Assembly (NCBI GenBank): GCA_020851255.1
Contig: JADZDA010000230.1
Location: 1-44,079 of the forward strand
DNA from: Burkholderiales bacterium
GTDB taxonomy: Bacteria > Pseudomonadota > Gammaproteobacteria > Burkholderiales > Casimicrobiaceae
Length of the DNA stretch: 44,079 nt
Reading direction: 5' to 3'
In this document: positions 4,158 to 29,760 of the stretch, one piece after another
How the letters are laid out: each line of letters starts with the position of its first letter
Numbering within the stretch: position 1 is the stretch's first letter
Translations under genes and position numbers: made by a program
Notes under the pieces: model-generated
The model's database searches: none
Seen by the model: only the letters and a program-made list of their open reading frames with translations
What the model was told of the DNA's origin: nothing

Positions 4158-4182
4158 GGCTTCCTCCTCGTGGCCGGCGATG

Positions 4183-6089: not shown

Positions 6090-6099
6090 GGGCGGCGGG

Positions 6100-10480: not shown

Positions 10481-11305
10481 TCAACCCTTGACCGCGCCGG
10501 CCATCAGGCCCTGCACGAGCCATTTCTGCATGATCAGGAAAGCGAAAATGACCGGGATCAGCGCGAGGACGGTCGCGGCCATGAGCTGGCCCCAGTCGAT
10601 GCCGATGTTCGAGATGAACGCGTAGAGTCCGTAGGGCACGAGGCGCTTCTGATCGCTGACCGCGAGCGTGTAACCGATCAGGAAGTCGTTCCACACCGCC
10701 ATCATCGCCATGATCGCGCCGGCCAGAAGCCCCGGACGGGCGATCGGCAGCACGATCAGGTAGAACAGCCGGAAAGGCCCGCAGCCGTCGATCTGCGCGG
10801 CCTCCTCGAGCTCGCGCGGCACCTTCTCGAAGAAGCCCTTGAGCAGCCATACGAGCAGCGGAACGTTCCACGCGGTGTAGACGATCACCATGCCGGCGAG
10901 CGAGTTGTACAGGCCGGTCTTGACCGACAGGTTGTACAGCGGGACGAGAATCGCGATGCCGGGGATCATCGAGGTCGCGAGGATCGCGAACATCAGCGCC
11001 GACTTGCCGCGGAAGTCGAACCGGGCGAGCGCGTAGGCGGCGTGCACGGCGAGCGCGAGGCTCGTGGCGACCGAGACGGCCGTGACGATCAGGCTGTTGC
11101 GAAAGTAGACCGGGAAGTTCGACTGCTGCCAGACCGTCGCGTAGTGCTCGAGCGACGGCGAGGTCGGCAGGAGCTGCGGCGGGTAGGCGACGACCTGCGT
11201 GGCCGGCTTGATCGACGTGAGGAGCCCCCAGACCAGCGGGCCCGCGGCGAACACGCAGGCGGCGAGCGTCAGGCCGATCATCGCGGCGTTCCGGCCCGGG
11301 GTCAC
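10481..11305 (-). CDS. ABC sugar permease (MalG/UgpE type)
   Basis: A 274-residue inner-membrane permease with six predicted helices and the EAA loop that docks the ATPase (ELEEAAQIDGCGPFRLF). It belongs to the second-permease class, with a short N-terminus and an extended first periplasmic loop (SLEHYATVWQQSNFPVYFRN). The start chosen is GTG at 11305, because it overlaps the stop of the preceding permease (GTGA, 11302-11305); an ATG at 11281 is the alternative. It pairs with the product of 11302-12219. Confidence 0.86.
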   Translation of the reverse strand: MTPGRNAAMIGLTLAACVFAAGPLVWGLLTSIKPATQVVAYPPQLLPTSPSLEHYATVWQQSNFPVYFRNSLIVTAVSVATSLALAVHAAYALARFDFRGKSALMFAILATSMIPGIAILVPLYNLSVKTGLYNSLAGMVIVYTAWNVPLLVWLLKGFFEKVPRELEEAAQIDGCGPFRLFYLIVLPIARPGLLAGAIMAMMAVWNDFLIGYTLAVSDQKRLVPYGLYAFISNIGIDWGQLMAATVLALIPVIFAFLIMQKWLVQGLMAGAVKG

Positions 11306-12219
11306 GAAGCGCCTCCCGGGTCCGAGGGCTTCAGCACGCGGACGTAGAACGCGCTGAACGCGAAGTTGACGACGGTGATCACCAGACCCAGCGCCGCGCC
11401 GCGGCCGATGTTCCAGTCCTCGAAACTCACCTTCAGCACGCGCACCGCGAGGGTCTCGGTCGACGCGAGCGGACCGCCGCCGGTCAGCGTGAAGATCAAC
11501 GTGACCATGTTGAAGTAGAGCAGCGTCAGTTGGATCAGCACGACGGCGAGCGTCGGCTTGATCTGCGGGAAGGTCACGTAGCGGAAGCGCTGGAACGCGT
11601 TCGCGCCGTCGACGTGCGCCGACTCGTGCAGCTCCTTCGGGATCGTCTGGACGGCGGCGAGCAGCAGCAGCGTCGCCTGCGGGTAGCTCGCCCAGACGTT
11701 GACGACGACCAGCGCGACCATCGCGCCGATCGGCGAGGCGAGCATCGCCGGGCGCGACCCGGTCGTCTGGTGGATCGCCCAGACGACCGGTCCGAAATCG
11801 GCGTTGAGGATCCACGCCCACAGCAGCGCGACGACCGTCTGCGACATCACCCAGGGCAGGATGACGAAGGTGCGCACGGTCGAGCGCATCGGCAGCTTCG
11901 CGTCGAGCAGCAGCGCGAGCCCCAGCGACAGCGGGATCGCGAGGGCGAGCGACGCGGCCGCGTAGACGAGCGAGTGCACCGCCGCCGACCAGGTCGCCGG
12001 GTCGTTCCACAGCGCGACGTAGTTGGCCAGCCCGACGAATTCGAGCTTCTCGGCGTAGCGTGTGCGGAAGAGCGAGAGTCCCAGCGCGTCGAACACCGGG
12101 TAGATGGACACGAGGAAGACGATCGCGACCGCCGGCGCGAGGAAGACGACCGGCAGCGGCAGCCGCGCGCCGCCGGGCGGGGCGGAGTCGGCGGACGCGA
12201 ACGCGACCATCGTGCTCAT
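11302..12219 (-). CDS. ABC sugar permease (MalF/UgpA type)
   Basis: First gene of the operon, 305 residues. It has a first membrane helix at about 23-43, an amphipathic NYVALWND segment, and the EAA loop in ELHESAHVDGANAFQRF. It forms the membrane channel with the next permease and the binding protein. There is no ATP-binding subunit gene anywhere in the operon or the window, so the transporter must borrow an ATPase encoded elsewhere, as multi-user MsmK/UgpC-type ATPases allow. The leader of about 110 bases runs to the palindromic control region. Confidence 0.86.
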   Translation of the reverse strand: MSTMVAFASADSAPPGGARLPLPVVFLAPAVAIVFLVSIYPVFDALGLSLFRTRYAEKLEFVGLANYVALWNDPATWSAAVHSLVYAAASLALAIPLSLGLALLLDAKLPMRSTVRTFVILPWVMSQTVVALLWAWILNADFGPVVWAIHQTTGSRPAMLASPIGAMVALVVVNVWASYPQATLLLLAAVQTIPKELHESAHVDGANAFQRFRYVTFPQIKPTLAVVLIQLTLLYFNMVTLIFTLTGGGPLASTETLAVRVLKVSFEDWNIGRGAALGLVITVVNFAFSAFYVRVLKPSDPGGAS

Positions 12220-12327
12220 CGGAGTGGGACGGGGCGGTGGCGGCCGGGGCGGATCGGAATGGCCGCGCAGGGTGCGTCCGGGAGGTCGGAAAGGCCGGCC
12301 CTGGACACGCCCGTCAGCGCGTCAATG

Positions 12328-12365
12328 ACTAACATGTTAGTAATAGTATTACTATGTTGTCAACA
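12328..12365. promoter_or_regulatory. Three abutting palindromes (operator cluster)
   Basis: An island of low GC between the leftward ABC operon (start 12219) and the rightward TRAP genes (start 12481). It holds three perfect palindromes: ACTAACATGTTAGT (12328-12341), TAGTAATA-G-TATTACTA (12338-12354) and TGTTG-T-CAACA (12355-12365). The first two overlap by four bases. TAGTATTACTA (12344-12354) fits the FadR/FCD consensus TnGTnnnACnA. The likely binder is the operon's GntR protein (6100-6780). Position suggests control of both divergent units. Confidence 0.75.
12334..12363 (-). promoter_or_regulatory. Predicted sigma-70 promoter for the ABC operon
   Basis: On the minus strand TTGACA (12363-12358) is a perfect -35 box, followed after 18 bases by TAACAT (12339-12334), a fair -10 box. 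Transcription would begin near 12327. Both boxes lie inside the palindromes, so a bound regulator would block RNA polymerase. Confidence 0.5.
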
Positions 12366-15996: not shown

Positions 15997-18253
15997 GTGA
16001 CCAGACTATCCGGCGTGGGCACATCCGACCGAGAGGGGCTCGAGACGGCGACCGCCGCGTTGCGGCGGTCGCTCGATTCTCACCTCGACGATCCACTGAT
16101 GGTGATTCGCGGCCGGAGCCTGATCTTCGGCGCCTGGGCCCAGATCCGCCTCGTCCGGATGCAGGCGCGCCTCGACTGCGCGCACGGCCGGGACACCGCG
16201 GGATTCGTCACCGGCCATCGCGGCTCGCCACTCGGTGGCGTCGACTTCGCGATGGGGAATGCGATGCGGCCGCTCGATGCCCGGCGCGTGCGCTTCATGC
16301 CGGCGATCAACGAGGAGCCGCCGAGGCCGCCGCGCTCGGAAGCCAGCGCGTCGTATCCGATGCCGAGCGCGAGGTCGAAGGCGTCTTCGCGCTCCGGTAC
16401 GGCTAGGGTCCGGGCCTCGATCGCGCCGGCGACATGCAGCGGCACGGCAACGCGTATGGCGTGTCCCGTCACGGAGGTGTGCTCGTGATCGCGGGCGACG
16501 ATCACGGCTGCGTGTCCTCGGGTATGCGGTTCCAGAGCGACCTCGCGATACGGGTCTGGTGCATGCCGGTGCTCCATCCGGCCAACATCGCAGAGCTCAT
16601 CGCGTTCGGCAATTGCGGCTGGGCGCGGTTCCGCTGCTCGGAGCCGGGATCGGCATGAAGGCGATCCCGGAGACCGTCGAGGCCACGGCCATCGCCACCG
16701 CGGATTTCGACGCCCTGCGCACCGAGTTCACGGTCCTGCCCGACTTCGTCGCGCCCGAGGGTGGACTGCACTGCCGGATGCAGGATCTCCCGGGCCTCGC
16801 GATCGAGGAACGCCCGGACGCCAAAGTCGATGCGGTGCGGGCGTTCGCCCTCGCCGATCCCATCGACCGGATCGTCGCCGACGTATCCAGCGCGAAGTTC
16901 GGCATCGTCACCTGCGGCAAGGCGCACGTCGACGTACTCGAGGCGCTGCGCTGGCTCGAGTTGCCGCTCGACACGCGCGCTGCAGCGGACGTGCGCCTCT
17001 GCAAGGTCGGGCAGGTCTTCCCGATCGGACCACAGAGGATGCATGCGTTGGCGCGCGGCCTCGACGAGGTGCTGGTCGTCGAGGAGAAGGCGCCGGTGGT
17101 GGAGAACCAGATCCGCGCGCAGCTCTACAACCTGGACCCGGGCGCGCGTCCGCTCGTGCTGGGCCGGGAGGATGCCGACAGCGACTGGCTGCTGCCGGCC
17201 ACCGGCGAGTTCCGCCCCCCGCGCGTCATGCCGGTGCTCGCCCGATGGCTGGCGTGGCACGCGCCGGGCCTAGACCGGCGCGGGAGCGTACCGGTGTTCG
17301 GCGCCGCGCCGGTGCCCCACTTCACCGGATTCGGTCAGGAAGGCGGAACCGCCATCGTCTTCGCCCGGATGGCCGGGCGCCCGGCGCTCCTCCACCAGAC
17401 GCGCAGCGACACGCAGCAGGCCGGCGCGATGATCGCCTTCGATCGGGTCGTGGACGCCTCGGTGGCGGCGCTGCAGACCCTCACGCGCGGTCGCACGCGC
17501 GTCGCGGCGAAGCTGCACGAGAATCCGACCGCCGCCCGCCCGGACGCGCTGCAGGTGATGCCTGGCGCCGATGCGTCGGGGCGCGATGATCCGTATGTCG
17601 ACGCCAACATCGACCGGGAACGGCGGCGCCCGACCATCTACCAGGACGGGGAGTACGAGCAACGCGGTCTCGACCTCGTTGCCTCGGTGAGGGACGCCGA
17701 GCGTGTGGTCGTCGGACCGGACGCGCCGCTCGAGCCGACGCGACAGGTGGCGCTCAACACCGCGAAGCTGCTCGCGTGGGAGGACGAGTACGAAGTCGAG
17801 CGAGCGTATCCCGGCGGCAGTCTCGATCGCGCGCTGCACACCGCATTCGCGGGCGACTTCGTCGTGCGGTACTGCTTCGCGCCGAAGTACCTCGTCCGGC
17901 CGCGCGCCGACGGCAGGCCGGCCCGCAAGCTCGTGTTCGGACGCTGGCGGCGTCCGGGGCTTCGGCTGCCGGGCACGGCGCGGCGTCTTCGAGGCGCGCC
18001 GCCCAACTCCTTCGGCCGGTCCGCCGCCCGTCGAACGGAGTGCGTGCCCGCAGCCGGGTACGCCGCCGCGGTCTCGCGGTCGCGGCATCCTCTCGGCGCG
18101 AGGACGCATGCCGCGGCGGTCCGCCGGAAAGCCCTGCCCGGCGACGCGCGTGGCTTCGGGAGCGTGAAACGCGCCGCGGCGGAGCGGATGCGGGCGCGGG
18201 TGCGGGAACAGGCGGAGCGGCTGCTGACAGCTGCGCCGGAGGCGCACCGGTGA
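15997..18253 (+). pseudogene. Indolepyruvate:ferredoxin oxidoreductase, decayed
   Basis: Remnant of the single-chain enzyme that converts indolepyruvate or other aryl/branched 2-oxo acids to acyl-CoA using TPP and iron-sulfur clusters (normally about 1,150 residues). The N-terminal GFVTGHRGSPLGG and RFMPAINEE are clear. The frame then shifts near 16313 (continuing as LGSQRVVSDAEREVEGVFALRYG), hits TAG at 16404-16406 where YGKGPG is expected, resumes as GGVLVIAGDDHG, and shifts again near 16630 into GIGMKAIPETVEAT. From 16655 the frame stays open to 18253. The whole TPP-binding region (CSGCPHN block) is missing: VPHF near 17320 runs directly into the gamma-domain motif TGFGQEGG. The C-terminus (EDEYEVERAY, RGFGSVK) is preserved. 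It cannot be catalytic. Confidence 0.88.
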
Positions 18254-19095
18254 ACGTGCGCCAGCGCTCGTCGGAGATCCCCGATCTGCGCGTCCTGCGC
18301 GTCGTCGATCTGTTGCTGCACGAGCAGCACGATTCGCAGCGCAGCGCTCCGCTGGCCCAGCGGATCGAGTCCGACGGCGTGCTGAAGAACCCGCCGATCG
18401 TGGCGCCAGTCGATGGCGGACCGCCGTTCGTCGTGCTCGACGGCGCGAACCGGGTGACGGCGGCGTCGGCGCTGGGGCTCGTGCATATCGCCGCGCAGGT
18501 CGTCGACTACGACGACCCGGCCCTGGCGCTGGACACCTGGCACCACCTGGTTTGCGGATTCCCCCGCGACCGGTTCGATGCGCTGGTGGAGGAGCGCGTC
18601 GGCGCGCGCCTCGAGCCGACCGATGTCATGCGCGCGCGTGCGCTCGTGGCCCGGCGCGAAGCGCTGGCCTTCGTCGTCCACCCAGACGGCCGAGCGTATG
18701 CGGTCGTTGCGGCCGGCGATCTGCACGAGCGCACGGCGCGACTGAACGCGCTGGTCGACATCTACCGGTCCCGCGGCCGGATCTGCCGCGTTCGCACCGA
18801 CCACATCGACGATCTCCTGTCCTGGCACGACGACGTCACCGTTCTGGTCGTGTTCCCGCGCTACGAGCCGGCGGAGATCGTCGACCTCGCCCGCGTCGGC
18901 GCCAGGCTGCCGGCGGGCATCACGCGCCACCTGATTCCGCACCGGGCGCTGCGCGTCAATTTTCCCGTGTCCATCCTGCGCGACGATCGATCGGCGCAGT
19001 CGAAGAACGACTGGCTGAAGGACTGGGTGAAGACGAAGCTCCAGGCGAAGGAAGTGCGGGCCTACCAGGAATCGACGGTGCTGTTCGATGAATGA
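18250..19095 (+). CDS. ParB-fold protein, SerK/SbnI-like serine kinase candidate
   Basis: A 281-residue protein with a ParB/sulfiredoxin-like N-terminal fold. It has LLLHEQHDSQR (H24, E25), RIESDGVLKNPPIVAP, and VVLDGANRVTAASALG (D64-R68), then a conserved VVDYDD and a C-terminal domain ending in YQESTVLFDE. The Glu and DGxxR spacing resembles the free L-serine kinases SerK and SbnI, which make O-phospho-L-serine with ATP or ADP; the match is by eye and moderate. There is no helix-turn-helix of partition ParB. The start is GTG 18250, overlapping the stop of the oxidoreductase remnant, so translation may depend on read-through of that dead gene. Unlike its upstream neighbour it has no lesions. 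Confidence 0.65.
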   Translation: MNVRQRSSEIPDLRVLRVVDLLLHEQHDSQRSAPLAQRIESDGVLKNPPIVAPVDGGPPFVVLDGANRVTAASALGLVHIAAQVVDYDDPALALDTWHHLVCGFPRDRFDALVEERVGARLEPTDVMRARALVARREALAFVVHPDGRAYAVVAAGDLHERTARLNALVDIYRSRGRICRVRTDHIDDLLSWHDDVTVLVVFPRYEPAEIVDLARVGARLPAGITRHLIPHRALRVNFPVSILRDDRSAQSKNDWLKDWVKTKLQAKEVRAYQESTVLFDE

Positions 19096-19533
19096 AGCCG
19101 TGCCCTCGGGCGTGGGCGGACCGCGCCGCGGCCGGCGGCGAACGCGGCCGTCGCCGGCCCTGGGCAACGACCCGGCGTGCCTGCGTTGTTCGTGCAGGCG
19201 CGCAATGCGCGCTGTCCCGCCGGTCGTCGAGGGCGGTGCCGGCGCTCGCCACAGGCCGGTGCCTCTGCGCTTGATGTCCATCAACGCGGTGAGGGAATCC
19301 GGTGCCTATAACGGGCGATCGCGAACGGCAGGACGGACAGCGACCGGGCTCATGCGGGTATCGCGACCGGCCCGCGTTCGTCGGCACGCCTACACGCGGT
19401 CGCGGACCGGAGGCGGAGCGTCCCGACGGCAGGCGCAACACGTATTCCCGCTTCTCGCGCGGTCCCGATCCTGCCCGCGTGCGGCAACGATTGCGGTTGC
19501 GCGATGCGCGCCACGAACGAGGGGGACGGTCCG
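19096..19533 (+). other. Intergenic region, 438 bp
   Basis: No convincing gene. A 154-codon open frame (19088-19552) is Arg/Pro/Ser-rich without family similarity and runs into the next gene; it is rejected as chance in GC-rich DNA. A stem-loop at 19130-19159 (GGCCGGCG arms, one mismatch further along) may end the upstream transcript. No clear promoter was found for the gene at 19534. Confidence 0.6.
19130..19159 (+). terminator. Stem-loop after the ParB-fold gene
   Basis: Arms GGCCGGCGGCG and CGTCGCCGGCC pair over 11 bases with one G-T position and a short loop of about 8 bases. It starts 35 bases after the stop at 19095. No T-tract is present. Confidence 0.45.
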
Positions 19534-20502
19534 ATGGCTAGACTCGGCCTGAGGGCAATCGCGGGAGCGCTGCTGGCGGCCGCCGTCGTGGCCTGCCAGG
19601 CCCCGGCCGATCCCGTGGACGCACTGGCCGCGCAGGCAGGGCCGGTGCGGCGTTCCGACCAGTTCCAGGCCGTGGCGGGAAACGGTACGTCGCTGGTCGT
19701 CGTGGGCGCGTTCGGCGCCGTCCTTTCCTCGAGCGACAACGGCAAGACCTGGACACGCGAAGAGCTCCCCGGCAAGCCTCCGCTCATCGCCGTATCCGCC
19801 TGCCCGGACGGCTCGTACGTCGCGCTGGATTTCTATCGCAAGGTATGGCTCGGCGACCGCGCCGCGAGGCAGTGGCAGGCGAAGGAGTTGAAGACTCGGG
19901 CCAATCCGCTCGCCCTCGCCTGCGATCCACGGGGCCGGATCTGGATCGTGGGCAGCAACAGCACGATCCTCGCGAGCCGCGACCGCGGCGCGACCTGGCG
20001 GGAGACTTCGCTGGGCGAGGACGCGATGCTCACGACGATCCAGTTCCTCGATGGCGAGCACGCGGTGATCAGTGGAGAGTTCGGGCTCTTCCTGACCACG
20101 GTCGACGGCGGCGCCCATTGGGTCCCGGGGCCCCGGATCTCCGACGACTTCTACCCGTATGCCGCACTGTTCTCGGACCCGAACACCGGCACGGTGAGCG
20201 GGCTGGGCGGTGTCATCGTTCACACGGTCGACGGCGGCAGGAGCTGGACCCGGGAGCCGAACCGGACCGGGGCTCCGATGTACGGCGTCGTGGATCACGG
20301 TGGCGAAACCTGGGCGCTGGGCGTGAACGGGCTGGTGCTCAAACGCGCGCAGCGGGAGTGGATGCCCACCGCGCAGGGTCTGCCGGCGCCGTGGCTCCGC
20401 GCCGGACGCTCGCTCGGCCCGACGGCGATGCTGGTTGCGGGCGGGGCGGGGACCCTGCAAATCGTTTCCACCGCACCCATCGCGTCCGGCGCCGGGAACT
20501 GA
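19534..20502 (+). CDS. YCF48-like beta-propeller lipoprotein
   Basis: A 322-residue exported protein. The signal peptide ends in a lipobox (AVVAC, Cys about 20), so it is probably lipid-anchored. Five blade repeats of the photosystem II assembly factor YCF48/BNR type follow, each with an Asp-box-like turn: SSSDNGKTWTREE, ASRDRGATWRET, TTVDGGAHWVPG, HTVDGGRSWTREP and a last degenerate VLKRAQREWMPT. The start at 19534 was preferred over ATG 19504 because GAGGGGG lies before it and the signal peptide then begins correctly. It comes 9 bases before the RND gene, so the two are coupled. A scaffold or assembly role for the transporter is inferred from position and is usual for this cassette. Confidence 0.82.
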   Translation: MARLGLRAIAGALLAAAVVACQAPADPVDALAAQAGPVRRSDQFQAVAGNGTSLVVVGAFGAVLSSSDNGKTWTREELPGKPPLIAVSACPDGSYVALDFYRKVWLGDRAARQWQAKELKTRANPLALACDPRGRIWIVGSNSTILASRDRGATWRETSLGEDAMLTTIQFLDGEHAVISGEFGLFLTTVDGGAHWVPGPRISDDFYPYAALFSDPNTGTVSGLGGVIVHTVDGGRSWTREPNRTGAPMYGVVDHGGETWALGVNGLVLKRAQREWMPTAQGLPAPWLRAGRSLGPTAMLVAGGAGTLQIVSTAPIASGAGN

Positions 20503-20511
20503 GGCTCGCCG

Positions 20512-22890
20512 ATGAGACACCGGGTCTCCCACGCGCTGCATCGAATCGAAGAGCAGGTGTTTCGCTCGCCGCGAATCATCCTCGGCGCGATCCTGATCGT
20601 CACCGCGTTTTTCGCCTGGCAGATCCCCGCGCTCAAGATGCACTCGGAGTTCGACGACCTGTTGCCGCAGCAGCACCCGTTCATCAAGCTGCACAGCGAG
20701 ATCCGCGACAGTTTCGGGGGGGCGAGCCAGATCGCCGTAGCGGTCGAGGTCGACGAGGGCACCATCTTCACCAACGGGACGCTGGCGCTGATCCACCGGG
20801 TCACCGCAGCGGTCGACAGCCTGCCGGGGGTCAACCACAACCTGGTGTCGAGCCTCACGCATCGTGCCGCGCGCAAGATCTGGCTCTCCGAGACCGGGGA
20901 GCTCAACTCCCAGCCTTACTACGATCCGGGTCGCGGATCGCTCTCCGCCGGGGAGCTGACGCAACTGCAGAACGACGTTCGCGCGAACCCCCGCGTCTAC
21001 GGACTCATGGTCTCGCCGGACATGAAAGCGGCGCTGATCAAGGCGCAGTTCAACGAAAGCGAGAGTCTCGACTACGTCCGGGCGTTCGACGAGCTGCAGA
21101 AGCTCCGCGGCAGCGAGGCGACGACGGGCGTGCGGATCTACGCCACCGGGCAGCCGGTGCTGATCGGCTGGGTCTACACCTACCTGCCGCAGATCCTGCA
21201 GATCTTCCTGTACACGCTGCTGCTGATGGTGGCGCTCCTGATCGCCTACTTCCGGCGACTGTACGGCGTGCTGCTTCCGCTGCTCGGCATCGTCCTGTCG
21301 TCCCTCTGGGGACTCGGCTTCGTCTCGCTGCTCCGGTTCAACGTCGACCCGCTGACGCTGGTGATTCCTTTCCTGATCGCCGCGCGCGCGATGTCCCACA
21401 GCATCCAGCTGGTCGAGCGCTACTATGGCGAACTCGCCGCGGTCGGAGATTCGACGGTTGCGGCGCGGAACGCGTTCGACGATCTCTTCCGTCCCGGTTC
21501 GCTCGCGGTGATCGTGGACACCGTGGGCATCCTGGTGCTCGCACTGGGGGCCGCACCGATCAACACCAAGCTCGGCTACTACGCCGCGTTCTGGGCGTTC
21601 TCGGTCCTGTTCACGGTGCTGCTGGTCGTCCCGCTGCTGCTGTTCGTCCTGCCGCGACCCCGAAAGACCGCCTACCGCTACGGCAGTGTGCGCAACGGGT
21701 TGACCGCGTTGTTCGGCGTGATCGCCCGGCCTTCGGGCGCGATCGGCGTGCTCGTCGTCGCGCTGGGACTGATCGCCGTCGGCGCGACCTTCGGCGCCAG
21801 GGTGCAGGTCGGCGAGGCCGAACCGGGCAGCCCGCTGCTCTTTCCTGCGCACGACTACAACGTCTCCTCCAAGGCCATCAACACCCGCTTCCCCGGCTCC
21901 GAAGAGCTCTACATCGTGGCGCGCACCGCCGACAAGGGCGGGCTCAAGCGCCCCGAGGTGTTGCATGCGCTCGAGGATTTCCAGAACCACATGCTGCACG
22001 ACCCGGCGCTCGGCGGGGCCAAGGGGCTGCCGGGACTGGTGCGCGCCGTCAACAGCCTGACCCACAACACCGATCCGCGCTGGAGCCAGATCCCGGACAC
22101 GGCAGCGGAAGTCGGCGGGCTGATGTTCGCGTACATGGCCGCGAGCCCGATTCCCGGCGCACTGAAGGAGTTCCTGAACCCCGAGGAGACCGAGGCCAAC
22201 CTGGTGTTCTTCTACAAGGACCACCAGGCCGGCACGATCGACCGGGCGATCCGGCTCGCGCGGCAAGGGGCCGCTGCGGCGAGCGGCCGCGCGAAGGACC
22301 TCGACATCCTGCTCGCGGGAGGCGTGGTCGGCGTGAACGCGGCGATCAACGAAGCGGTGCGCGAGGACAACAAGCTCATCGTTCCGCTCGTGCTGGTGCT
22401 CTCGTTCGTGCTCGTGACCGTCTTCTACGGGTCGCTGCACGCCGGGTGGCTGATGGTGCTGCCCATGCTCTTCGCCACCGTGCTCACCTACGCCTACATG
22501 GGCGTCAAGGGGATCGGCATCAACGTCAACACCGTGCCGGTGATCGCCGTCGGCATCGGCGTGGGCATCGACTACGCCATCTACCTGATGAACCGCATCC
22601 GCGAGGAAATGGCGAACCTGGGTGACCTGCATCGGGCGGTGACTCGCGCCATGGCGACCACCGGTTTCGCGGTGACTTTCACGGCGGCCACGCTGATCGC
22701 CGGGGTGGCGATGTGGGTGGTGCTCTCCGATCTGCGGTTCCAGTCGGACTCGGCGCTGCTCCTGACCGTGATGCTGGTCCTCAACGCCGTGGCCGCCATG
22801 TTCCTGGTGCCGGCGTGGGTCATCGTGATCAAGCCGGCGTTCATCACACGGGCACGACTGGACGAGGACGGCGTGGTTCAGGTCGATTAG
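20512..22890 (+). CDS. RND/MMPL-family transporter
   Basis: A 792-residue inner-membrane protein in the two-fold RND layout: TM1 at about 21-40, a periplasmic domain (45-220), TM2-6 (223-380), TM7 (about 409-428), a second periplasmic domain and TM8-12 (622-780). It belongs to the predicted exporter branch (COG1033/MMPL) that moves lipids or other hydrophobic compounds. The C-terminal half has the proton-relay type motif GIGVGIDYAIYLMNR. The matching position in the N-terminal half reads PFLIAARAMSHSIQL, with no Asp-Tyr pair, as is common in this branch. No membrane-fusion protein or TolC gene is adjacent. Instead DUF1302 and DUF1329 genes follow, probably supplying the outer-membrane and periplasmic parts. 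Confidence 0.88.
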   Translation: MRHRVSHALHRIEEQVFRSPRIILGAILIVTAFFAWQIPALKMHSEFDDLLPQQHPFIKLHSEIRDSFGGASQIAVAVEVDEGTIFTNGTLALIHRVTAAVDSLPGVNHNLVSSLTHRAARKIWLSETGELNSQPYYDPGRGSLSAGELTQLQNDVRANPRVYGLMVSPDMKAALIKAQFNESESLDYVRAFDELQKLRGSEATTGVRIYATGQPVLIGWVYTYLPQILQIFLYTLLLMVALLIAYFRRLYGVLLPLLGIVLSSLWGLGFVSLLRFNVDPLTLVIPFLIAARAMSHSIQLVERYYGELAAVGDSTVAARNAFDDLFRPGSLAVIVDTVGILVLALGAAPINTKLGYYAAFWAFSVLFTVLLVVPLLLFVLPRPRKTAYRYGSVRNGLTALFGVIARPSGAIGVLVVALGLIAVGATFGARVQVGEAEPGSPLLFPAHDYNVSSKAINTRFPGSEELYIVARTADKGGLKRPEVLHALEDFQNHMLHDPALGGAKGLPGLVRAVNSLTHNTDPRWSQIPDTAAEVGGLMFAYMAASPIPGALKEFLNPEETEANLVFFYKDHQAGTIDRAIRLARQGAAAASGRAKDLDILLAGGVVGVNAAINEAVREDNKLIVPLVLVLSFVLVTVFYGSLHAGWLMVLPMLFATVLTYAYMGVKGIGINVNTVPVIAVGIGVGIDYAIYLMNRIREEMANLGDLHRAVTRAMATTGFAVTFTAATLIAGVAMWVVLSDLRFQSDSALLLTVMLVLNAVAAMFLVPAWVIVIKPAFITRARLDEDGVVQVD

Positions 22891-22906
22891 GCATCACGGC
22901 ATCACG
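22891..22906 (+). repeat. Tandem octamer GCATCACG
   Basis: Two exact copies of GCATCACG lie directly after the RND stop codon, followed by a degenerate third (GCGTCGTG) that forms the left edge of the neighbouring hairpin. It may be a simple slippage product. Confidence 0.7.
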
Positions 22907-22907
22907 G

Positions 22908-22941
22908 CGTCGTGGCCGCGTCACGCGGCGAGGCCACGACG
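22908..22941 (+). terminator. Stem-loop between RND and DUF1302 genes
   Basis: A perfect 10-bp inverted repeat (CGTCGTGGCC / GGCCACGACG) with a 14-base loop stands in the 147-base gap between two same-strand genes of the cassette. There is no T-run. It may partly terminate transcription or protect the upstream mRNA, giving different amounts of the inner-membrane and outer-membrane components. Confidence 0.5.
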
Positions 22942-23037
22942 TGGAACGGCGCGTTGCGGCGGCGATACCGTGCGCGCTGGCGTTCGGGGCCAAGGCAGGC
23001 CGGGGGAAGTTCCACCATCGACGAGGGGAGCGCGCTC

Positions 23038-25029
23038 ATGGCAGATTCCAGGAACCAAGGAACACCGACGCCGACACCGGCGCGTTTCGCACACATGTTG
23101 CTGCTCGGGTCGCTGGCCGTGCTCGGGCCGTTCCCGGCGGTCGCGACGGCGGCCGAACCGGCCGGCGCCAATCCGTGGGTGGTCGACGTCTTCTACGAGA
23201 ACGACATCCACAGCAGGCGGGACGTCGGGCTCGCGAAGTTCCGCAACACGCTGCAGATGGAGGCCGCCAGGAAGCTGGGGGCCACAGGCCCGTTCTCCGA
23301 CCTCGGGTTCAACGTGAAGCTGCGGGGAACGTTCGATGCCGTGCACCGGATCAAGGACCACCGGTTCGGCAACCAGGCCGGCGGATCGGTTTCGCTGGAG
23401 AACGGCGTCCCGGGGCAGGACTACAGCGCGCTGTTCGGGGCGCCTCCCGGGACGCTCCTGGGCACCGGGCCGGTTCCGCACGGAGAGGCGCCGATCGCGC
23501 TGTTCAACAGCGGTGACGTGCTGCTCAACAATCCGAACGAGGGCATGGTCGTCCTGGGGAGCCAACTGCACGAAACCGACGGAGGCGTCGCCTTCGGCGT
23601 GCCGGTGCGTCCCTGCGACACCGACTCGCGCGGCTGCCTCAAGGACTACATGGACGCCAGCCGGCAGGAGCTGGAGTCGCCGGAGTTCAATCACCGCCTC
23701 GACGTCCTTCGCGAAGCCTACTTCGCGGGGACCCTCCCTTTGTCCGATGGCAAGAGCCTGTTCCTCAAGATCGGCAAGCAGCAGGTGGTCTGGGGCCGCA
23801 CCGACCTGTTCCGCGTCCTCGACGTGATCAATCCGATCGATTACTCGCGCAACAACATCTACGACGAGATGCAGGACATACGGATCCCGATGTGGATCGC
23901 GCAGTTCGAGTACCGGATGGGGGCGAGCGAGAGCTTTCAGGACCGCAACTTCCAGGTCGTGTGGAACTTCGACAAGTTCCGCCCCCACACCCTCGTGCAA
24001 TGCGGCTCGCCCAACGTGATCCTCGACGCGGGATGCTTCTTCCGCGGCATGAAGAACCTGTGGGACAACGGAGGCACGGTCGCCAACTTCGCGGGCGCCG
24101 GCGCGATCAACGGGACGCCGGGCCTCGCCACGACGTTCGGCCCCAACCAGATCGGCATCCGCGAAGTGAACCTTCCCGGGTGGTCGCTCGACAACACCCA
24201 GCTCGGGCTCAAGTTCGAAGGCGTGACCAAGGACGCCCTGAGCTTCTCGGTCAACTTCCTCACCTACCGCTCGCAGCTTCCCAGCCTTCGCGGCGGCATC
24301 ACCTCGGTGCACCCGTTCACCGGCGCGACCGGCACGTTTCCCTACCTGATCGCTTTCGACCTCGATTTCCCCCGGGTGAACCTGCTCGGCGGATCGCTCG
24401 ACATCCAGGCCGACTCGATCGGGTCGGTGATTCGCATGGAGGCCGCGATCACCAAGGGCGAGGAGTTCCCGAGCACGATGCAACCGCGCCTGTTCAAGCA
24501 ATCGAAGGTGGTGAGGTACGTGATCGGGCTGGACCGCCCGACGTTCATCCCGCTGCTCAACAAGGACCGCACGTTCCTGATCTCGGGCCAGATCTTCGGC
24601 CAGCACCTGCTGGACCACGAGCAGGCCGACGGACCGCTGGGCAGGGTCGGGATGCCCGACTGGAAAGACAACTGGATCGGGACGCTGCTGGTCAAGGGCT
24701 GGTACCAGAACGACCGGCTGAGCCCGCAGTTGCTCATGGCGTACGACGTCCGTGCGCGGGCCGGCGCCGTGGCGCCCTCCCTGGAATGGCTCGTGTCCGA
24801 CAATCTCAAGCTGACCTTCGGGGCCAACATCAAGGCCGGGACTGGTGCGCGCAAGTTCGACGACGACCGCACCGCCAACCCGTTCCCGGGATTCACCGGA
24901 CCGCCCGGACAGGCCACGATGTCCGCGGGCCTCGGCGGCTACGAGCCGCTCGGGCGGTTCCGCTCGGGTCCGATCGGCATGGCCATCAACGAGGATTTCG
25001 TGCAGTTCGCGTTGCGCTACAAGTTCTGA
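23038..25029 (+). CDS. DUF1302 outer-membrane protein
   Basis: A 663-residue exported protein of the DUF1302 family. The signal peptide runs to about residue 40 (LLLGSLAVLGPFPAVATAAE). The mature part is Gly/aromatic-rich with beta-strand periodicity (FYENDIHSRRDVGLAKFRNT, KIGKQQVVWGRTDLFRVLD) and ends in ALRYKF, a barrel-assembly signal. VVWGRTDLFRVLDVINPIDY is the family's most recognisable block. The start was chosen at ATG 23038 with GAGGGGAG upstream. DUF1302 and DUF1329 genes are almost always side by side. Their role is not settled; a pore for hydrophobic substrates, exported or imported with the RND protein, is the working idea. Confidence 0.87.
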   Translation: MADSRNQGTPTPTPARFAHMLLLGSLAVLGPFPAVATAAEPAGANPWVVDVFYENDIHSRRDVGLAKFRNTLQMEAARKLGATGPFSDLGFNVKLRGTFDAVHRIKDHRFGNQAGGSVSLENGVPGQDYSALFGAPPGTLLGTGPVPHGEAPIALFNSGDVLLNNPNEGMVVLGSQLHETDGGVAFGVPVRPCDTDSRGCLKDYMDASRQELESPEFNHRLDVLREAYFAGTLPLSDGKSLFLKIGKQQVVWGRTDLFRVLDVINPIDYSRNNIYDEMQDIRIPMWIAQFEYRMGASESFQDRNFQVVWNFDKFRPHTLVQCGSPNVILDAGCFFRGMKNLWDNGGTVANFAGAGAINGTPGLATTFGPNQIGIREVNLPGWSLDNTQLGLKFEGVTKDALSFSVNFLTYRSQLPSLRGGITSVHPFTGATGTFPYLIAFDLDFPRVNLLGGSLDIQADSIGSVIRMEAAITKGEEFPSTMQPRLFKQSKVVRYVIGLDRPTFIPLLNKDRTFLISGQIFGQHLLDHEQADGPLGRVGMPDWKDNWIGTLLVKGWYQNDRLSPQLLMAYDVRARAGAVAPSLEWLVSDNLKLTFGANIKAGTGARKFDDDRTANPFPGFTGPPGQATMSAGLGGYEPLGRFRSGPIGMAINEDFVQFALRYKF

Positions 25030-25049
25030 CGACCACGGGAGAGTTCACG

Positions 25050-26357
25050 ATGAAACGCCTATGGATGGGATGTTCGCTGCTCGCGGCCGTCGCATGCTCG
25101 TCGATCGCGTTCGGAGCCACCGACGCCGACGTCGACAGGTCTTTCTTCCCCTACCGGACCAGCGTCCCGGCGTTCCCGGGCGTCAAGCCGGGCCTCGTCA
25201 TCGGCAAGGACAACGTCGAGCCGTTCAGGAACGCGGTGGATCCCGCGCTGTACCAGCACCTCAAGGACGGGTGGCTCGAGATCCCGGTCGGCCCCACGAC
25301 GTCGCTGGACCTGCACCCGAACTACGTCGACGCCACGCGCAAGAACCTGAACAAGGTCAAGCTCGGCGCCCAGCCCGGCGAGATCACCGGTTTCGTCGCC
25401 GGACGACCGTTTCCCGAGGAGCCCGACCTCTCGGACCCGAGGGCCGGCGAGAAGCTCGCCTGGAACTTCAAGTACCTGATCAACTACGGCGACAACGGCG
25501 CGATCACGCCGTTCTACTGGACCTTCCGCGACCTCAACAGCGGCAAGATCGAGCGCCGGCTCAACTTCAGCTTCCACTTCCTGAATTACAAGCACCGGGT
25601 CATCGAGCCGCCGCTGCCGGAAGTGACGCCGAATCCGTCGCAGTTGTTCCGCGGCATCTACGCGAAGGTGCTCGAACCGCTCGACGTCAAGAACACGCAG
25701 CTCCTGATCCAGCGTTTCTCGGACGACCTGAAGCGGGACGACGCATACCTCTACCTCGGCTGCCAGCGCCGCGTGCGGCGGCTCGCCACCGGGCAGGTGA
25801 CCGACGCGTTCCTGGGCAGCGACCTGATGGTGGAGGATTTCGAGGGATACAACGGGCGCATCTCCGACATGGTCTGGACCTACAAGGGCACGGCCAACAT
25901 GCTGGCCCCGTTCTTCAACCACAACGAGCAGAAGCTGTCCGACGAGTTCAAGGAGCCCGACGGCTACAAGTTCATCGCGTTCGGCGGCAAGGGCGGCTGC
26001 TTCCCGATCGTGAGCTGGCAATTGCGCAAGATGTACGTGCTCGAAGCCAAGCCGGTGGAGGCGGGCCACCCGATCAGCAAGCGCGTCTACTACGTGGACT
26101 CGCAGACGTTCACGATGTCGCGCACGCTGATCTACGACCGCAAGGGAGAGCTGTGGAAGAGCTTCACGGTCGGCAAGTCGCTGCCCGACCACCATCTGCC
26201 GGAGAACAAGGGCAGCGGCGCGCCAGTGGACGACTTCTTCAGCATGGTGGACGTGCAGTCCAGGCACTGCACGACCGGTCAGTTCAAGGCGCACATGGGC
26301 GGCAAGCTCACGCCGGTCTCGCTGTTCAGCGTCCAGAACATGCGCGGCGGTGATTGA
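25050..26357 (+). CDS. DUF1329 exported protein (LolB-like fold)
   Basis: A 435-residue DUF1329 protein with a signal peptide (cut near SIAFGATDAD, about residue 24). Typical features are FPGVKPGLVIGKDNVEPF near the N-terminus, LDLHPNYVDATRKNLNKVKL, WNFKYLINYGD and the long C-terminal half with YYVDSQTFTMSRTLIYDRKG. The family has a lipoprotein-carrier-like fold (LolA/LolB relatives) and is thought to hold a lipid-like ligand in the periplasm or at the outer membrane. The gene follows the DUF1302 stop by 20 bases. With the propeller and RND genes it completes a four-part envelope cassette. Confidence 0.87.
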   Translation: MKRLWMGCSLLAAVACSSIAFGATDADVDRSFFPYRTSVPAFPGVKPGLVIGKDNVEPFRNAVDPALYQHLKDGWLEIPVGPTTSLDLHPNYVDATRKNLNKVKLGAQPGEITGFVAGRPFPEEPDLSDPRAGEKLAWNFKYLINYGDNGAITPFYWTFRDLNSGKIERRLNFSFHFLNYKHRVIEPPLPEVTPNPSQLFRGIYAKVLEPLDVKNTQLLIQRFSDDLKRDDAYLYLGCQRRVRRLATGQVTDAFLGSDLMVEDFEGYNGRISDMVWTYKGTANMLAPFFNHNEQKLSDEFKEPDGYKFIAFGGKGGCFPIVSWQLRKMYVLEAKPVEAGHPISKRVYYVDSQTFTMSRTLIYDRKGELWKSFTVGKSLPDHHLPENKGSGAPVDDFFSMVDVQSRHCTTGQFKAHMGGKLTPVSLFSVQNMRGGD

Positions 26358-26376
26358 CATCGTTGTTCGGGCGCTA

Positions 26377-26394
26377 CCCGCGGCGGCCCGCGGG
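26377..26394 (+). terminator. Short GC hairpin after DUF1329
   Basis: CCCGCGG and CCGCGGG form a 7-bp perfect stem with a CGGC loop, 20 bases after the DUF1329 stop. It is weakly terminator-like; no T-run. Confidence 0.4.
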
Positions 26395-26594
26395 AGGGCG
26401 GCTGCGCGCCTTGTTCGGCGATCCGACTCGAGCACGGGAAGCCGCGCTGGCGGCCGGCGCCGGTGGCGTCACGGATCGCCGTGCATCGTCCGTCCCCGGT
26501 GAGCCCCCCGTGCGCTCGATCACAGGTTCACGCTTCTTCGCAACGGCACGACGACTCCCGCGACGGGAGCGCAGCCACCCGACCAGGAGGAATC

Positions 26595-27965
26595 ATGTCC
26601 GACACCGTCAAGTACGTCCTCGAGGAATCGAGGATCCCGAAGACCTGGTACAACATCCAGGCCGATCTGCCGAAGCCGCTCCCGCCGGTGCTGCACCCGG
26701 GTACGCACAAGCCGATCGGACCGGATGACCTCGCGCCGCTCTTTCCGCTGGAGCTCATCCTGCAGGAGGTGTCGACGGAACGCGAGATCGACATTCCCGG
26801 CCCGGTGCGCGACGTCTACCGCCAATGGCGGCCGTCCCCGCTGTATCGCGCCCGCCGTCTCGAGGCGGCGCTCGGGACGCCGGCGAGGATCTACTACAAG
26901 TACGAAGGTGTGTCCCCCTCGGGCAGCCACAAGCCGAACACCGCGATTCCGCAGGCGTTCTACAACCGCGAGGCCGGCATCAAGCGCCTCTCGACCGAGA
27001 CCGGCGCCGGCCAGTGGGGATCGTCGCTCTCGTTCGCCGGCAGGGTCTTCGGCCTGGAAGTGCAGGTCTTCATGGTTCGCGTCTCCTACAACCAGAAGCC
27101 GTATCGGCGCGCGCTAATGGAGACCTATGGCGCACGTTGCATCGCCTCGCCTTCGAACGAAACGAATTCCGGTCGCGCCATCCTGGCGAAGTCGCCGGAC
27201 CACCCGGGCAGCCTCGGCATCGCGATCTCCGAGGCGGTCGAGATCGCGGCGCAGCGCGACGACACCAAGTACGCGCTGGGCAGCGTGCTGAACCACGTGC
27301 TGATGCACCAGACCATCATCGGGACGGAGGCGATGGCGCAGCTCGAGATGGCCAACGACTATCCCGACGTGATCGTCGGCTGCACCGGCGGCGGGTCGAA
27401 CTTCGCCGGCATCGCATTCCCCTTCCTCGGCGCGCAGCTGCGCGGCGGGAAGAAGGTGCGGATCGTGGCGGTCGAGCCCGCGGCGTGTCCCAGCCTCACC
27501 CGCGGCCGGTACGCGTACGATTTCGGCGACACCGCGCACCTGACGCCGCTCACCAAGATGCACACGCTGGGGTCGACCTTCACGCCGCCCGGCTTCCACG
27601 CCGGCGGCCTGCGCTACCACGGCATGGCGCCGCTGGTGAGCCACGTCAAGGAGCTGGGCCTGATCGAGGCGGTCGGCTACAAGCAGTTGCAGTGCTTCGA
27701 CGCGGGCGTGCAGTTCGCCCGCGCGGAAGGCATCGTGCCGGCGCCGGAAGCGAACCACGCGGTCAAGGGTGCGATCGACGAGGCGATCCGCTGTCGCGAG
27801 GAGGGCGTGTCGCGCGCGATCCTGTTCAACCTGTGCGGCCACGGCCACTTCGACATGCAGGCGTACATCGACTACTTCGGCGGCAAGCTGAAGGACCTCG
27901 ACTACGACGAGGCCGAGCTCGCCATGGCGCTCGCGGGACTGCCTTCGGTGAAGGAGGCCGCGTAG
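26595..27965 (+). CDS. trpB2: TrpB2-type tryptophan synthase beta chain
   Basis: A 456-residue PLP enzyme of the TrpB2 group, the long stand-alone form that does not pair with TrpA. The PLP lysine is K113 in [27 protein letters not shown] is the substrate-binding region, [11 protein letters not shown] binds the PLP phosphate, and [17 protein letters not shown] is the TrpB2-specific communication region. It joins indole to serine or, in characterised TrpB2 enzymes, to O-phospho-L-serine. No trpA, trpC or trpF gene is nearby, so an indole-salvage role is more likely than de novo synthesis. AGGAGG lies before the ATG. It is on the same strand as the serine-kinase candidate at 18250 and the intervening envelope cassette. 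Confidence 0.88.
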
Positions 27966-27968
27966 CGC

Positions 27969-28020
27969 GCGGCGAAACGCCGGCGGTATGGCGTCGCCGC
28001 TGCCGCCGGCGTTTCGTCGC
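27969..28020 (+). terminator. Long stem-loop after trpB2
   Basis: An 18-bp inverted repeat with a single mismatch (left arm 27969-27986, right arm 28003-28020; core CGAAACGCCGGCGG) with a 16-base loop begins four bases after the trpB2 stop. It is the strongest hairpin in the window. The T-run is limited to GTTTCG inside the right arm. Confidence 0.7.
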
Positions 28021-28436
28021 AGCGAGGTCGACATCGCCGGTCGACGGCGCGCCGATGTCCGGGCCGAACCGCGCACCTCCTGCGCGTTGAAGAAGGAGTG
28101 GGCCCCCGGTCCCACGAGCCCTGTAGGACGGCGGGAATCGGCCGCGGTCGACCCCGGGGAGAGAGGGTGATCGAGAACGCGGACGACATGCGCGGACTGC
28201 ACGTTCGCCCCGATCGAGCGACGACCCGGGGGACGTTGCGACGGGTCGGCGCTCGACGTCGGGATGTCGGGCGATCGCGCGCACCGGGCCGCAACCGGCC
28301 ACGCGCGGGTCGTTCGGGGGTTGTCGGTCCCGGGGATTGTTCGCCGTGACGGTGCCGGTGGCACGCGCCGGCGAGGTACAGTCGATACCTCGGGACCGCC
28401 CGCCGGGCGGCGTCCCCGCATGGACCCGGAGGATCG
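28021..28436. other. Intergenic region, about 415 bp
   Basis: No gene could be supported. Short open frames here (for example 28098-28349) are Arg-rich and lack family features or good ribosome sites. The promoter of the following small gene must lie here, but no clear -35/-10 pair was recognised. Confidence 0.5.
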
Positions 28437-28697
28437 ATGATCGAAGAAAAGATCAAGGTGCGCGCCACGACCAGCGGCCAGGAGCTGGAAGTCGTCGTCT
28501 TCAGCAAGCGCCGCGATCGCATCGAGGTCGTGATCGGGACCGGCGTGCACAGCGTGCGCTGCGAGTTGCTTCCGACCCGGACCGGTCAGGCCTACGTCGG
28601 TAAGGCGATGGGGCGCGAAATCGTCTACGAGACGAGCCGCGAGCAGGTCGAGGCGGACATCGCGCGGGCCGCCTCCCGGGCGCTGTTCCGGCGCTGA
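28437..28697 (+). CDS. Small conserved-looking protein, function unknown
   Basis: An 86-residue protein starting MIEEKIKVRATTSGQELE, with GGAGG eight bases upstream. Alternating hydrophobic strands (LEVVVFSKRRDRIEVVIG, HSVRCELLPT) are followed by a C-terminal helix (EQVEADIARAASRALFRR). It looks like a small alpha/beta cytoplasmic protein with no signal peptide or membrane segment. The codon pattern is like that of its neighbours. It precedes dusA by about 80 bases on the same strand. No family recognised. Confidence 0.65.
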   Translation: MIEEKIKVRATTSGQELEVVVFSKRRDRIEVVIGTGVHSVRCELLPTRTGQAYVGKAMGREIVYETSREQVEADIARAASRALFRR

Positions 28698-28776
28698 CGT
28701 CGGTCCGCGCGGCGAACCGCGCAGCGCAGCCACGCGGCCACGCCGGTTCGTCGAGCGGTCGGTACCGCCATTCGTG

Positions 28777-29760
<984 letters not shown>

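Follow-up and report, generated by a model that had tools for sequence, protein, structure and literature searches.

The window, a 44,079-nucleotide contig (JADZDA010000230.1) of a Casimicrobiaceae bacterium of the order Burkholderiales, contains a candidate serine kinase with a ParB-like fold and, as originally predicted, a stand-alone TrpB2 on the same strand (Table 1). Together with the remnant of an indolepyruvate ferredoxin oxidoreductase (IOR), the two genes span about 11.9 kb, within the 12 kb first proposed. Kinase and TrpB2 are separated by 7,499 bp holding four genes of other types and lack the adjacency (within 300 bp) seen in relatives. The four intervening genes form a cassette that is probably unrelated to either, and we infer that kinase and TrpB2 are probably transcribed separately. 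A promoter and terminator scan of positions 18000–28800 returned nothing useful, and no siderophore gene occurs among the window genes examined.

Table 1. Features of the window between the oxidoreductase remnant and TrpB2
Feature	Coordinates	Strand	Remarks
Decayed indolepyruvate ferredoxin oxidoreductase pseudogene	16063..18253	+	more than one frame, internal gaps
Probable free-serine kinase, SerK/SbnI-type, ParB-like fold	18250..19095	+	281 aa, GTG start, H24-E25 and D64GANR68
YCF48-type BNR-repeat protein	19504..20502	+	Pfam PF14870; between kinase and TrpB2
MMPL/RND-type transporter, cassette with YCF48-type protein	20512..22890	+	Pfam PF03176
DUF1302 protein, YCF48/MMPL cassette	22912..25029	+	Pfam PF06980; true start uncertain
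DUF1329 protein, YCF48/MMPL cassette	25059..26357	+	Pfam PF07044; start approximate
TrpB2, stand-alone tryptophan synthase beta, TIGR01415/PRK12391	26595..27965	+	456 aa, model scores

The IOR remnant directly abuts the kinase, its last frame stopping within the GTGA that includes the GTG of the kinase. It survives as pieces matching positions 11–95, 98–203, 204–417, 761–835 and 949–1164 of a 1170-position model, and the same genome carries two near-full-length copies (contigs C32 and C9) as well as partial ones. To our knowledge, indolepyruvate oxidoreductases neither produce nor consume indole. Because the gene is decayed and its enzyme family has indole as neither substrate nor product, we place the remnant outside the proposed route and reject its earlier reading as an indole-linked member of the set.

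The ParB-like protein is, by sequence profiles and predicted fold, of the SerK/SbnI type and not a partition protein. A 42-row profile of its family searched against the PDB found SbnI, the serine kinase and regulator of staphyloferrin B synthesis (PDB 5ujd, 5uje and 6nr6), at 5.9e-30 and archaeal SerK at 1.2e-12. The NCBIfam models match the window protein at 1.3e-18 (SbnI) and 1.2e-13 (SerK), and SbnI and SerK models both match all 42 scanned family members at E ≤ 0.001. In Foldseek searches, the AF2 model (pLDDT 92.5) matched both enzymes over the full length, with SbnI the best hit (7e-18), followed by SerK, the ADP-dependent free serine kinase of Thermococcus (3.7e-16 to 5.3e-15; Makino 2016, PMC5120207; PDB 5x0b and mutants, 1vk1 being a Pyrococcus homologue). 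SerK residues H29-E30 and D69-G-H-H-R align with H24-E25 and D64-G-A-N-R68 of the window kinase, as do the SbnI equivalents, so that the predicted Glu...DGxxR arrangement is indeed present. E25 is kept in 151 of 152 homologues and D64 and R68 in all 152; the SerK counterpart of E25 is the catalytic glutamate E30, mutated in PDB entries 5x0e, 5x0g, 5x0j and 5x0k. Among six betaproteobacterial copies, dN/dS lies between 0.05 and 0.10 in all 15 pairs.

Its scores fall below both NCBIfam equivalog cut-offs (67.3 of 350 bits for SbnI, NF033589; 50.7 of 380 bits for archaeal SerK, NF053625), and we therefore place the window kinase in a branch of its own, distinct from both SbnI and SerK. Identity in structural alignments is 20–23% to SbnI and 15–17% to SerK, from which the window protein also differs in its DGANR loop and its bacterial origin; clear-cut SerK homologues were not found in bacteria according to the accessible part of Makino 2016 (PMC5120207). 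We consider it very probable, from sequence and model, that the protein is a free-L-serine kinase. Profile searches group it with SbnI and SerK rather than with partition families, and what the original prediction regarded as its weakest link has become, through profiles, predicted fold and residue conservation, the best supported one.

The window TrpB2 exceeds the cut-offs of TIGR01415 (634 bits versus 519), a hypothetical equivalog only, and PRK12391 (738 bits versus 366), and carries the motifs GSHKPNTA and ETGAGQWG. It shares these models and catalytic motifs with the stand-alone TrpB2 enzymes reported to need O-phospho-L-serine (OPS) (Busch 2014, as cited in PMC11917138). Its own genome, 86% complete, gave no trpA match and has a TrpB1-like piece truncated where contig C41 ends; serC is present, so the usual phosphorylated route of serine synthesis could also supply OPS. 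The window TrpB2 shares 83–88% identity with ten further copies from the genus (nine in kinase-less genomes, one the second copy of its own genome) and 75–78% with the eight betaproteobacterial kinase-linked TrpB2 proteins. In a tree it groups with the unlinked same-genus copies and not with the kinase-linked ones, although the AU test does not reject the latter grouping (p = 0.107). None of 21 other same-genus genomes searched has a full-length kinase match, while nine have TrpB2; the expected co-occurrence thus fails among close relatives and appears only among wider ones. The trpB2 surroundings in 18 relatives' regions (one being the second copy of the same genome) have no widely shared neighbor besides trpB2 and overlapping frames.

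Genome contigs queried with the window kinase alone yielded no relative, whereas a four-row alignment gave 126 matches, of which 80 were kept. Taking adjacency as same strand and within 300 bp, TrpB2 adjoins the kinase in 9 of these 80 loci (permutation mean 0.67, 0 of 5000 as high), a comparison whose loci share ancestry and are hence not independent. Across 172 loci, TrpB2 directly adjoins a kinase-family gene in 15, distributed over Betaproteobacteria, Chloroflexota and Ignavibacteriota, with the kinase first in Betaproteobacteria and Ignavibacterium and TrpB2 first in Chloroflexota. On a quick tree of 152 rows (leaving out 19 near-duplicates and one more of the 172), the TrpB2-link label requires four changes, at least three of them forced by starred branches, against a shuffled mean of 14.5; this count takes as linked L042, another split kinase–TrpB2 pair with 4.2 kb between, and rises to five changes (at least four forced) if L042 is unlinked. 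A starred set of 14 rows unites the window kinase with two rows titled Chloroflexota and 11 betaproteobacterial rows, six of them TrpB2-adjacent, one the split pair L042 and four without TrpB2 in the stretch examined; by locus, 4 of 12 betaproteobacterial kinases are without TrpB2 in that stretch. One order of Chloroflexota supplies 81 of 151 kinase-bearing genomes, the partial matches G855:C46, G919 and G963 are fragments, and a plasmid search gave two Bacillaceae matches, one in an annotated siderophore cluster and the other in an unannotated record. The accessible part of a 2007 survey of TrpB2 names no conserved neighborhood besides trp operons (PMC1854888), whereas in the present loci trpB2 repeatedly has a serine kinase gene beside it. 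In the literature searched, which excluded bioRxiv and most subscription papers, we found no description of a kinase–TrpB2 pair or of a bacterial SerK.

Cysteine synthases are the more frequent partners, neighboring the kinase in 54 of 172 loci versus 15 for TrpB2. CysK, CysM or CBS-type genes lie within 300 bp on the same strand in 22 of the 80 loci (permutation mean 1.5, 0 of 5000 as high, again for mutually related loci), and L041 is counted as cysteine-linked although its match is a CBS-domain stretch of 130 aa only. Eleven genomes have two kinase matches, and in six of these one is TrpB2-linked and the other lies beside a CBS-type cysteine synthase. In nine loci the kinase is fused to a 2-hydroxyacid-dehydrogenase-type (SerA-like) domain, and the two scanned match phosphoglycerate dehydrogenase best; both such a fusion and a partner within 300 bp are missing from 94 of 172 loci, many of them short contigs. 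One alignment inspected by eye for the OPS-specific Arg/Lys in linked cysteine synthases was not decisive. At L104 and related loci, the kinase sits among genes for a ubiquitin-like small modifier (SAMP1 model, above cut-off) and CysM-like and desampylase-like proteins (both below cut-off), a set that resembles CysO-CysM-Mec and is absent from the window. We know of no serine kinase in the mycobacterial CysO-CysM-Mec cysteine pathway. The family shares with SerK its serine/OPS context and SerA association, and differs in that the bacterial partners are CBS-type cysteine synthases or TrpB2; in Desulfurococcales, SerK itself neighbors genes for 3-phosphoglycerate dehydrogenase and aminotransferase, according to the accessible part of Makino 2016 (PMC5120207).

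These contexts would also suit a general OPS supplier, serving mainly cysteine synthesis or the breakdown of serine to 3-phosphoglycerate by SerA-like enzymes, with the closeness of the window TrpB2 a coincidence. The split arrangement in the window and the grouping of its TrpB2 with unlinked copies agree with such a role, which we regard as possible yet distinctly the less probable. The window holds no cysteine synthase of the kinds sought and the gene following the kinase is YCF48-type, the starred set of the window kinase includes the six TrpB2-adjacent rows, the split pair and the four rows without TrpB2 described above, and by simple arithmetic the chance of same-strand closeness within 7.5 kb, with two TrpB2 copies in 4.3 Mb, is below 1%.

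That TrpB2 makes tryptophan at linked loci is suggested by regulatory RNAs. At L117, whose genome yielded no match to trpA, IGPS or TrpB1, a 102-bit T-box with specifier GAA-UGG precedes the TrpB2 of an adjacent pair, with a possible overlap between TrpB2 stop and kinase start; at L231, a Trp-specifier T-box precedes TrpB2 and the kinase is on the opposite strand. These are the T-boxes in 2 of 54 sources scanned overall, and in 1 of 10 adjacent kinase–TrpB2 loci scanned, the adjacent betaproteobacterial loci L043, L044, L047, L048 and L051 lying outside the RNA-family scan. No T-box was found at the gathering threshold in the window or in the nine remaining adjacent loci scanned (three cut within TrpB2 at the end of the contig or fetched region), nor was one found in 22 sources picked for a cysteine-synthase match in the locus or in 20 further sources, 14 with a cysteine-synthase neighbor. 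Genomes G834 and G835 have no detectable trpA, IGPS, full TrpB1 or convincing serC_1, and G831 has trpA with IGPS unmatched, absences that are weak in metagenome-assembled genomes.

PLP fold-type II enzymes take varied nucleophiles, and TIGR01415 is a hypothetical equivalog only; the linked TrpB2-like enzymes might join OPS with a nucleophile other than indole to give another beta-substituted alanine. The Trp-specifier T-boxes ahead of TrpB2 make this improbable, as does a Bacteroides protein 59% identical to Thermotoga TrpB2, which benefited an E. coli trpA mutant in cross-feeding, an effect that the authors, in the accessible part of their paper, read as indole use (PMC11535334). Slightly less probable still is a regulator, binding nucleotides through its ParB fold and acting on its neighbors in response to serine or a nucleotide, an idea prompted by the NCBIfam name of SbnI, bifunctional regulator and kinase, and by a SerK-like archaeal fusion that bound CTP rather than ATP (PMC12704722); the SerK/SbnI fold over the full length, the near-invariant catalytic residues, partners repeatedly of OPS-consuming types and fusion to a metabolic dehydrogenase-like domain all speak for an enzyme.

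A chromosome or plasmid partition ParB is refuted by sequence and predicted fold, since the shared ParB/Srx core yields mostly matches of 77–86 columns (TM (query) about 0.24, the few longer ones superposing poorly) and a weak hit to a partition model (8e-4; TIGR00180 matches 3 of 42 family members), while Pfam ParB_N misses the window kinase, is weak in 8 of 42 members and has its single match in this genome on another contig, and SbnI and SerK match over the full length at far better E-values. A sulfiredoxin-like protein is refuted likewise, and the DGANR loop lacks the Cys of sulfiredoxin.

The best explanation overall, to which we assign a probability of roughly 70%, is that the kinase makes OPS and a PLP enzyme, TrpB2 in the linked members, consumes it. 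The protein would belong to a third branch of free-serine kinases, bacterial, beside archaeal SerK and siderophore SbnI, and would convert L-serine and a nucleotide (probably ADP or ATP) to OPS, with E25 as the base and the D64GANR68 loop. SbnI passes its OPS to SbnA, a PLP beta-replacement enzyme, and here the consumer differs. Among PLP fold-type II enzymes, cysteine-linked members would supply CysM or a CBS-domain cysteine synthase, and TrpB2-linked members would supply TrpB2, which would swap the OPS phosphate for indole to form tryptophan. The likely purpose would be to catch free or external indole, phosphate being a better leaving group than the serine hydroxyl. We infer the kinase reaction, the OPS preference of the linked TrpB2s and the flux between both enzymes. 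The serine to OPS to tryptophan route is well supported for the kinase family, through the 15 adjacent loci, two gene orders and one Trp T-box at an adjacent pair, and plausible for the window, with its two genes apart. That the kinase feeds TrpB2 where the genes adjoin is likely; whether the pairing holds in the window too is an even bet.

It is also fairly probable that a large bacterial free-serine-kinase branch was drawn on three or four separate occasions into a dedicated two-gene kinase and TrpB2 tryptophan module, which in species without the trp pathway may be the sole tryptophan route, from salvaged indole, and which in one lineage is switched by a tRNA-Trp T-box. We know of no serine-activating enzyme supplying OPS to bacterial TrpB2, and serine kinases beside TrpB2 would answer who does so. 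Kinases beside cysteine synthases suggest a general activation of serine by phosphate instead of acetylation, and the 'ParB' annotation would be shown to hide a widespread metabolic enzyme. Kinase genes beside TrpB2 in several unrelated bacteria suggest a previously unrecognized small tryptophan route, in which the TrpB2 partner is probably able to make tryptophan from phosphoserine and indole; kinase and TrpB2 together would constitute a new way into tryptophan synthesis that starts from free indole and serine.

The ParB-fold protein of the window, described in the original prediction as resembling the archaeal serine kinase SerK and the staphyloferrin B serine kinase/regulator SbnI, keeps that description. 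It matched no Pfam family, and among NCBIfam models it hit SbnI (1.3e-18) and archaeal SerK (1.2e-13), whereas partition or nucleoid-occlusion models reached just 8e-4 and 0.16. Searched with phmmer against solved structures, it recovered SbnI (1.3e-10 to 1.1e-8) and SerK or its Pyrococcus homologue (1e-5 to 4e-5). A second search across public genomes, using a four-row kinase alignment, gave 126 relatives, 80 of which were kept; 40 of these, the window kinase and one more sequence formed a 42-row alignment. The resulting profile matched SbnI at 5.9e-30, the Pyrococcus homologue 1vk1 at 2.5e-14 and Thermococcus SerK at 1.2e-12, versus 0.009 for Noc. All 42 family members match both the SbnI and the SerK model, whereas three match the ParB model TIGR00180 and eight match Pfam ParB_N weakly. 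In Foldseek, an AlphaFold2 model of the window kinase (mean pLDDT 92.5) aligned over its entire length with SbnI (7e-18) and SerK (3.7e-16), with TM of 0.66-0.82; ParB, Noc and sulfiredoxin aligned mostly over 76-93 columns (query TM 0.22-0.25), and a few longer ParB alignments had an rmsd >11. We rejected a partition ParB identity, as its weak or short ParB and Noc matches stand against full-length matches to SbnI and SerK in both sequence and predicted fold. E25 is conserved in 151 of 152 kinase sequences and pairs in the alignment with SerK E30, the residue named in the titles of PDB entries 5x0e, 5x0g, 5x0j and 5x0k (E30A or E30Q mutants), while R31, D64, R68, Q83 and R180 are found in all 152. 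All 15 pairs among six betaproteobacterial copies have a dN/dS of 0.05-0.10. The predicted assignment as a serine kinase is strong.

Features of the window and their positions
Feature	Position	Strand	Description
Kinase	18250-19095	+	Open frame, GTG start, 281 residues
Genes between kinase and TrpB2			YCF48-type, MMPL, DUF1302 and DUF1329 genes
TrpB2 (stand-alone tryptophan synthase beta)	26595-27965	+	Over both TrpB2 cut-offs
238-residue frame	41982-42698	-	No Pfam match; recurs at L127:6149-6937, a same-genus region

The best solved relatives of the window TrpB2 are the TrpB entries 6hul, 4qys and 6hte, the first two of which we take to be Sulfolobus TrpB2. The indolepyruvate ferredoxin oxidoreductase of the window is a pseudogene, because it is broken into pieces (covering 11-95, 98-203, 204-417, 761-835 and 949-1164 of a 1170-position model) that lie in more than one frame.

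Among 61 genomes of the window's genus, family and order, a full-length kinase match is confined to its own genome, and four others gave short hits of 19.5-23.4 bits. Two matches at E <= 1e-8 (the own genome and one more) were found in 369 genomes of the class, and one at E <= 1e-10 in 398 of the phylum. The Chloroflexota order of G835, the genome holding locus L117, has matches at E <= 1e-20 in 81 of 151 genomes, G835 among them. The gene is therefore widespread in that order but a rarity across the window's phylum.

Of 80 kinase loci, 9 have TrpB2 on the same strand no more than 300 bp from the kinase, and 14 have it somewhere in the locus; the corresponding counts for a cysteine synthase or CBS match are 22 and 24. 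When the kinase was instead placed at random within these loci, the mean number of loci with a match inside 300 bp was 0.67 for TrpB2 and 1.5 for the cysteine synthase or CBS match, and none of 5000 trials was as high as observed; many of the loci are related and thus not independent. In 7 of 12 betaproteobacterial loci, TrpB2 sits directly downstream of the kinase at a distance of 142-145 bp; in L042, 4.2 kb separates the two genes, and no TrpB2 lies within the stretch covered in L050, L052, L053 and L059. The gap is 29 bp in the Ignavibacterium locus L114. In seven loci of the Chloroflexota order (L117, L193, L194, L227, L228, L229 and L232), the order is flipped, with TrpB2 preceding the kinase. 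SerB phosphoserine phosphatase lies beyond the pair at L051:9579-10313 (minus strand), convergent to TrpB2, and six other loci are alike by clustering; this may be ordinary local gene order.

We labelled 172 loci (both locus sets, the second partly repeating the first, plus the window and L010; many stretches are short) as TrpB2 (15), cysteine synthase (54), SerA-like fusion (9) or none (94). In the nine fusions (L175-L183), the kinase frame extends upstream by about 280-300 residues, the extensions being mutually similar; the two scanned best matched phosphoglycerate dehydrogenase TIGR01327 (3e-42 and 6e-45), below its cut-off. One example, L175:2147-3820 (plus strand), joins a phosphoglycerate-dehydrogenase-like domain to a following kinase domain, and the fusion proteins measure about 530-580 residues. 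By appearance, they look like enzymes of serine, O-phospho-L-serine (OPS) or 3-phosphoglycerate; L192, cut at its start, is probably a tenth. At L104:8039-12571, and similarly in L099, L105, L107, L108 and L111, the kinase is surrounded by genes for a SAMP1-like ubiquitin-type modifier, a CBS-type cysteine synthase, a CysM-like protein and a desampylase-like protein. This L104 set resembles the CysO-CysM-Mec set of mycobacteria. TrpB2 or a piece of it occurs on the same contig as this cluster in L099, L104, L105 and L108.

A quick tree of 152 kinases, with SH-aLRT as its sole support measure and the split pair L042 counted as TrpB2-linked, requires four changes of the TrpB2 label, at least three being forced by well-supported branches, against an average of 14.5 for shuffled labels. 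The changes fall in the betaproteobacterial clade, at L117, in a six-row Chloroflexota clade and at L114, a long branch of unsure placement. They may be gains or losses; because two gene orders exist, we favour separate gains of TrpB2 linkage. Eleven genomes of G835's order have two kinase matches, and in six two-kinase genomes (G835, G838, G839, G853, G866 and G879) one copy lies by a CBS-type cysteine synthase and the other by TrpB2. The two copies of G835 are sisters with 100% support.

The original prediction was that the kinase could make OPS from serine and TrpB2 could join OPS to indole, yielding tryptophan; OPS-dependent TrpB2 was reportedly described by Busch in 2014. At 83-88% identity, the window TrpB2 is closer to ten other same-genus copies, one of which is the second TrpB2 of its own genome (L013, G000:C11:58450-59697; 87%), than to the eight betaproteobacterial kinase-linked copies (75-78%). 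It falls among unlinked copies in the tree (support 95/94), although placement with kinase-linked copies was not rejected by the AU test (p 0.107). Its assembly has two TrpB2 copies, versus a single one over cut-off in every one of the nine same-genus genomes that bear the gene; this could reflect duplication, transfer or a mixed bin (contamination 4.8%). In the kinase tree, a well-supported group of 14 rows holds the window kinase together with 11 from Betaproteobacteria (six next to TrpB2, the split pair, and four lacking TrpB2) and two Chloroflexota-titled rows, the nearest to it by path, with no TrpB2 in their loci. A PLP decarboxylase-like gene comes after each of these path-nearest kinases: 5903-6226 (called by eye) after L041:4470-5300, and 10859-12331 (scanned, below cut-off) after L046:10001-10822. 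Because the window TrpB2 groups with unlinked copies and the nearest kinases have no TrpB2 in their loci, the two genes of the window, although both present and close together, may have separate histories. The own genome also carries serC, which likewise makes OPS. TrpB2 over cut-off occurs in 25 of 36 kinase-bearing genomes (a selected set), and in 12 of 22 not picked for nearby TrpB2 versus 18 of 61 around the window, a co-occurrence that is only suggestive as the groups differ in taxonomy. Comparative genomics makes a strong case for a predicted kinase-TrpB2 module in other bacteria; for the window itself, a route from serine through OPS to tryptophan is plausible.

Makino 2016 reports that bacteria yielded no clear-cut homologues of SerK. 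A 2025 ParB-fold survey lists SerK and SbnI along with orphan relatives and reports that a SerK-like archaeal fusion bound CTP. A 2007 TrpB survey saw no conservation of the genes around trpB2 other than in trp operons. In the available text of the literature searched, a link between a serine kinase and TrpB2 was not described.

L117 carries a T-box leader (102.1 bits against a cut-off of 93) ahead of TrpB2 and the kinase, with a 62-codon frame also downstream of it; the earliest possible ATG of the kinase overlaps the TrpB2 stop, a second ATG lying 36 bases further on. Read by eye on the Rfam alignment, the specifier position of this T-box, between GAA and ACC, is UGG, the tryptophan codon, and its UGGC bulge fits a tRNA with G at the discriminator position, a base that bacterial tRNA-Trp has there. 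A second T-box (96.1 bits, GAA-UGG by the same reading) precedes TrpB2 in L231, with the kinase nearby on the opposite strand; there, a cobalamin riboswitch (3730-3904, minus strand) lies back to back with the T-box (4076-4426, plus strand), between the kinase side and TrpB2. No others were found in the 54 sources scanned, and one of ten adjacent kinase-TrpB2 loci scanned has a T-box. Neither G835 nor G834, the genome holding L114, gave a match to trpA or IGPS, a full TrpB1-like hit or a convincing serC_1 (the G835 match being just 4.9e-4); among 14 control genomes, trpA and IGPS were found in all and serC_1 model matches in 11, and metagenome-assembled genomes can be incomplete, G831 having trpA without an IGPS match. 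If these absences are real, indole is the sole starting point for tryptophan synthesis in the G835 and G834 species, where OPS may come from the kinase.
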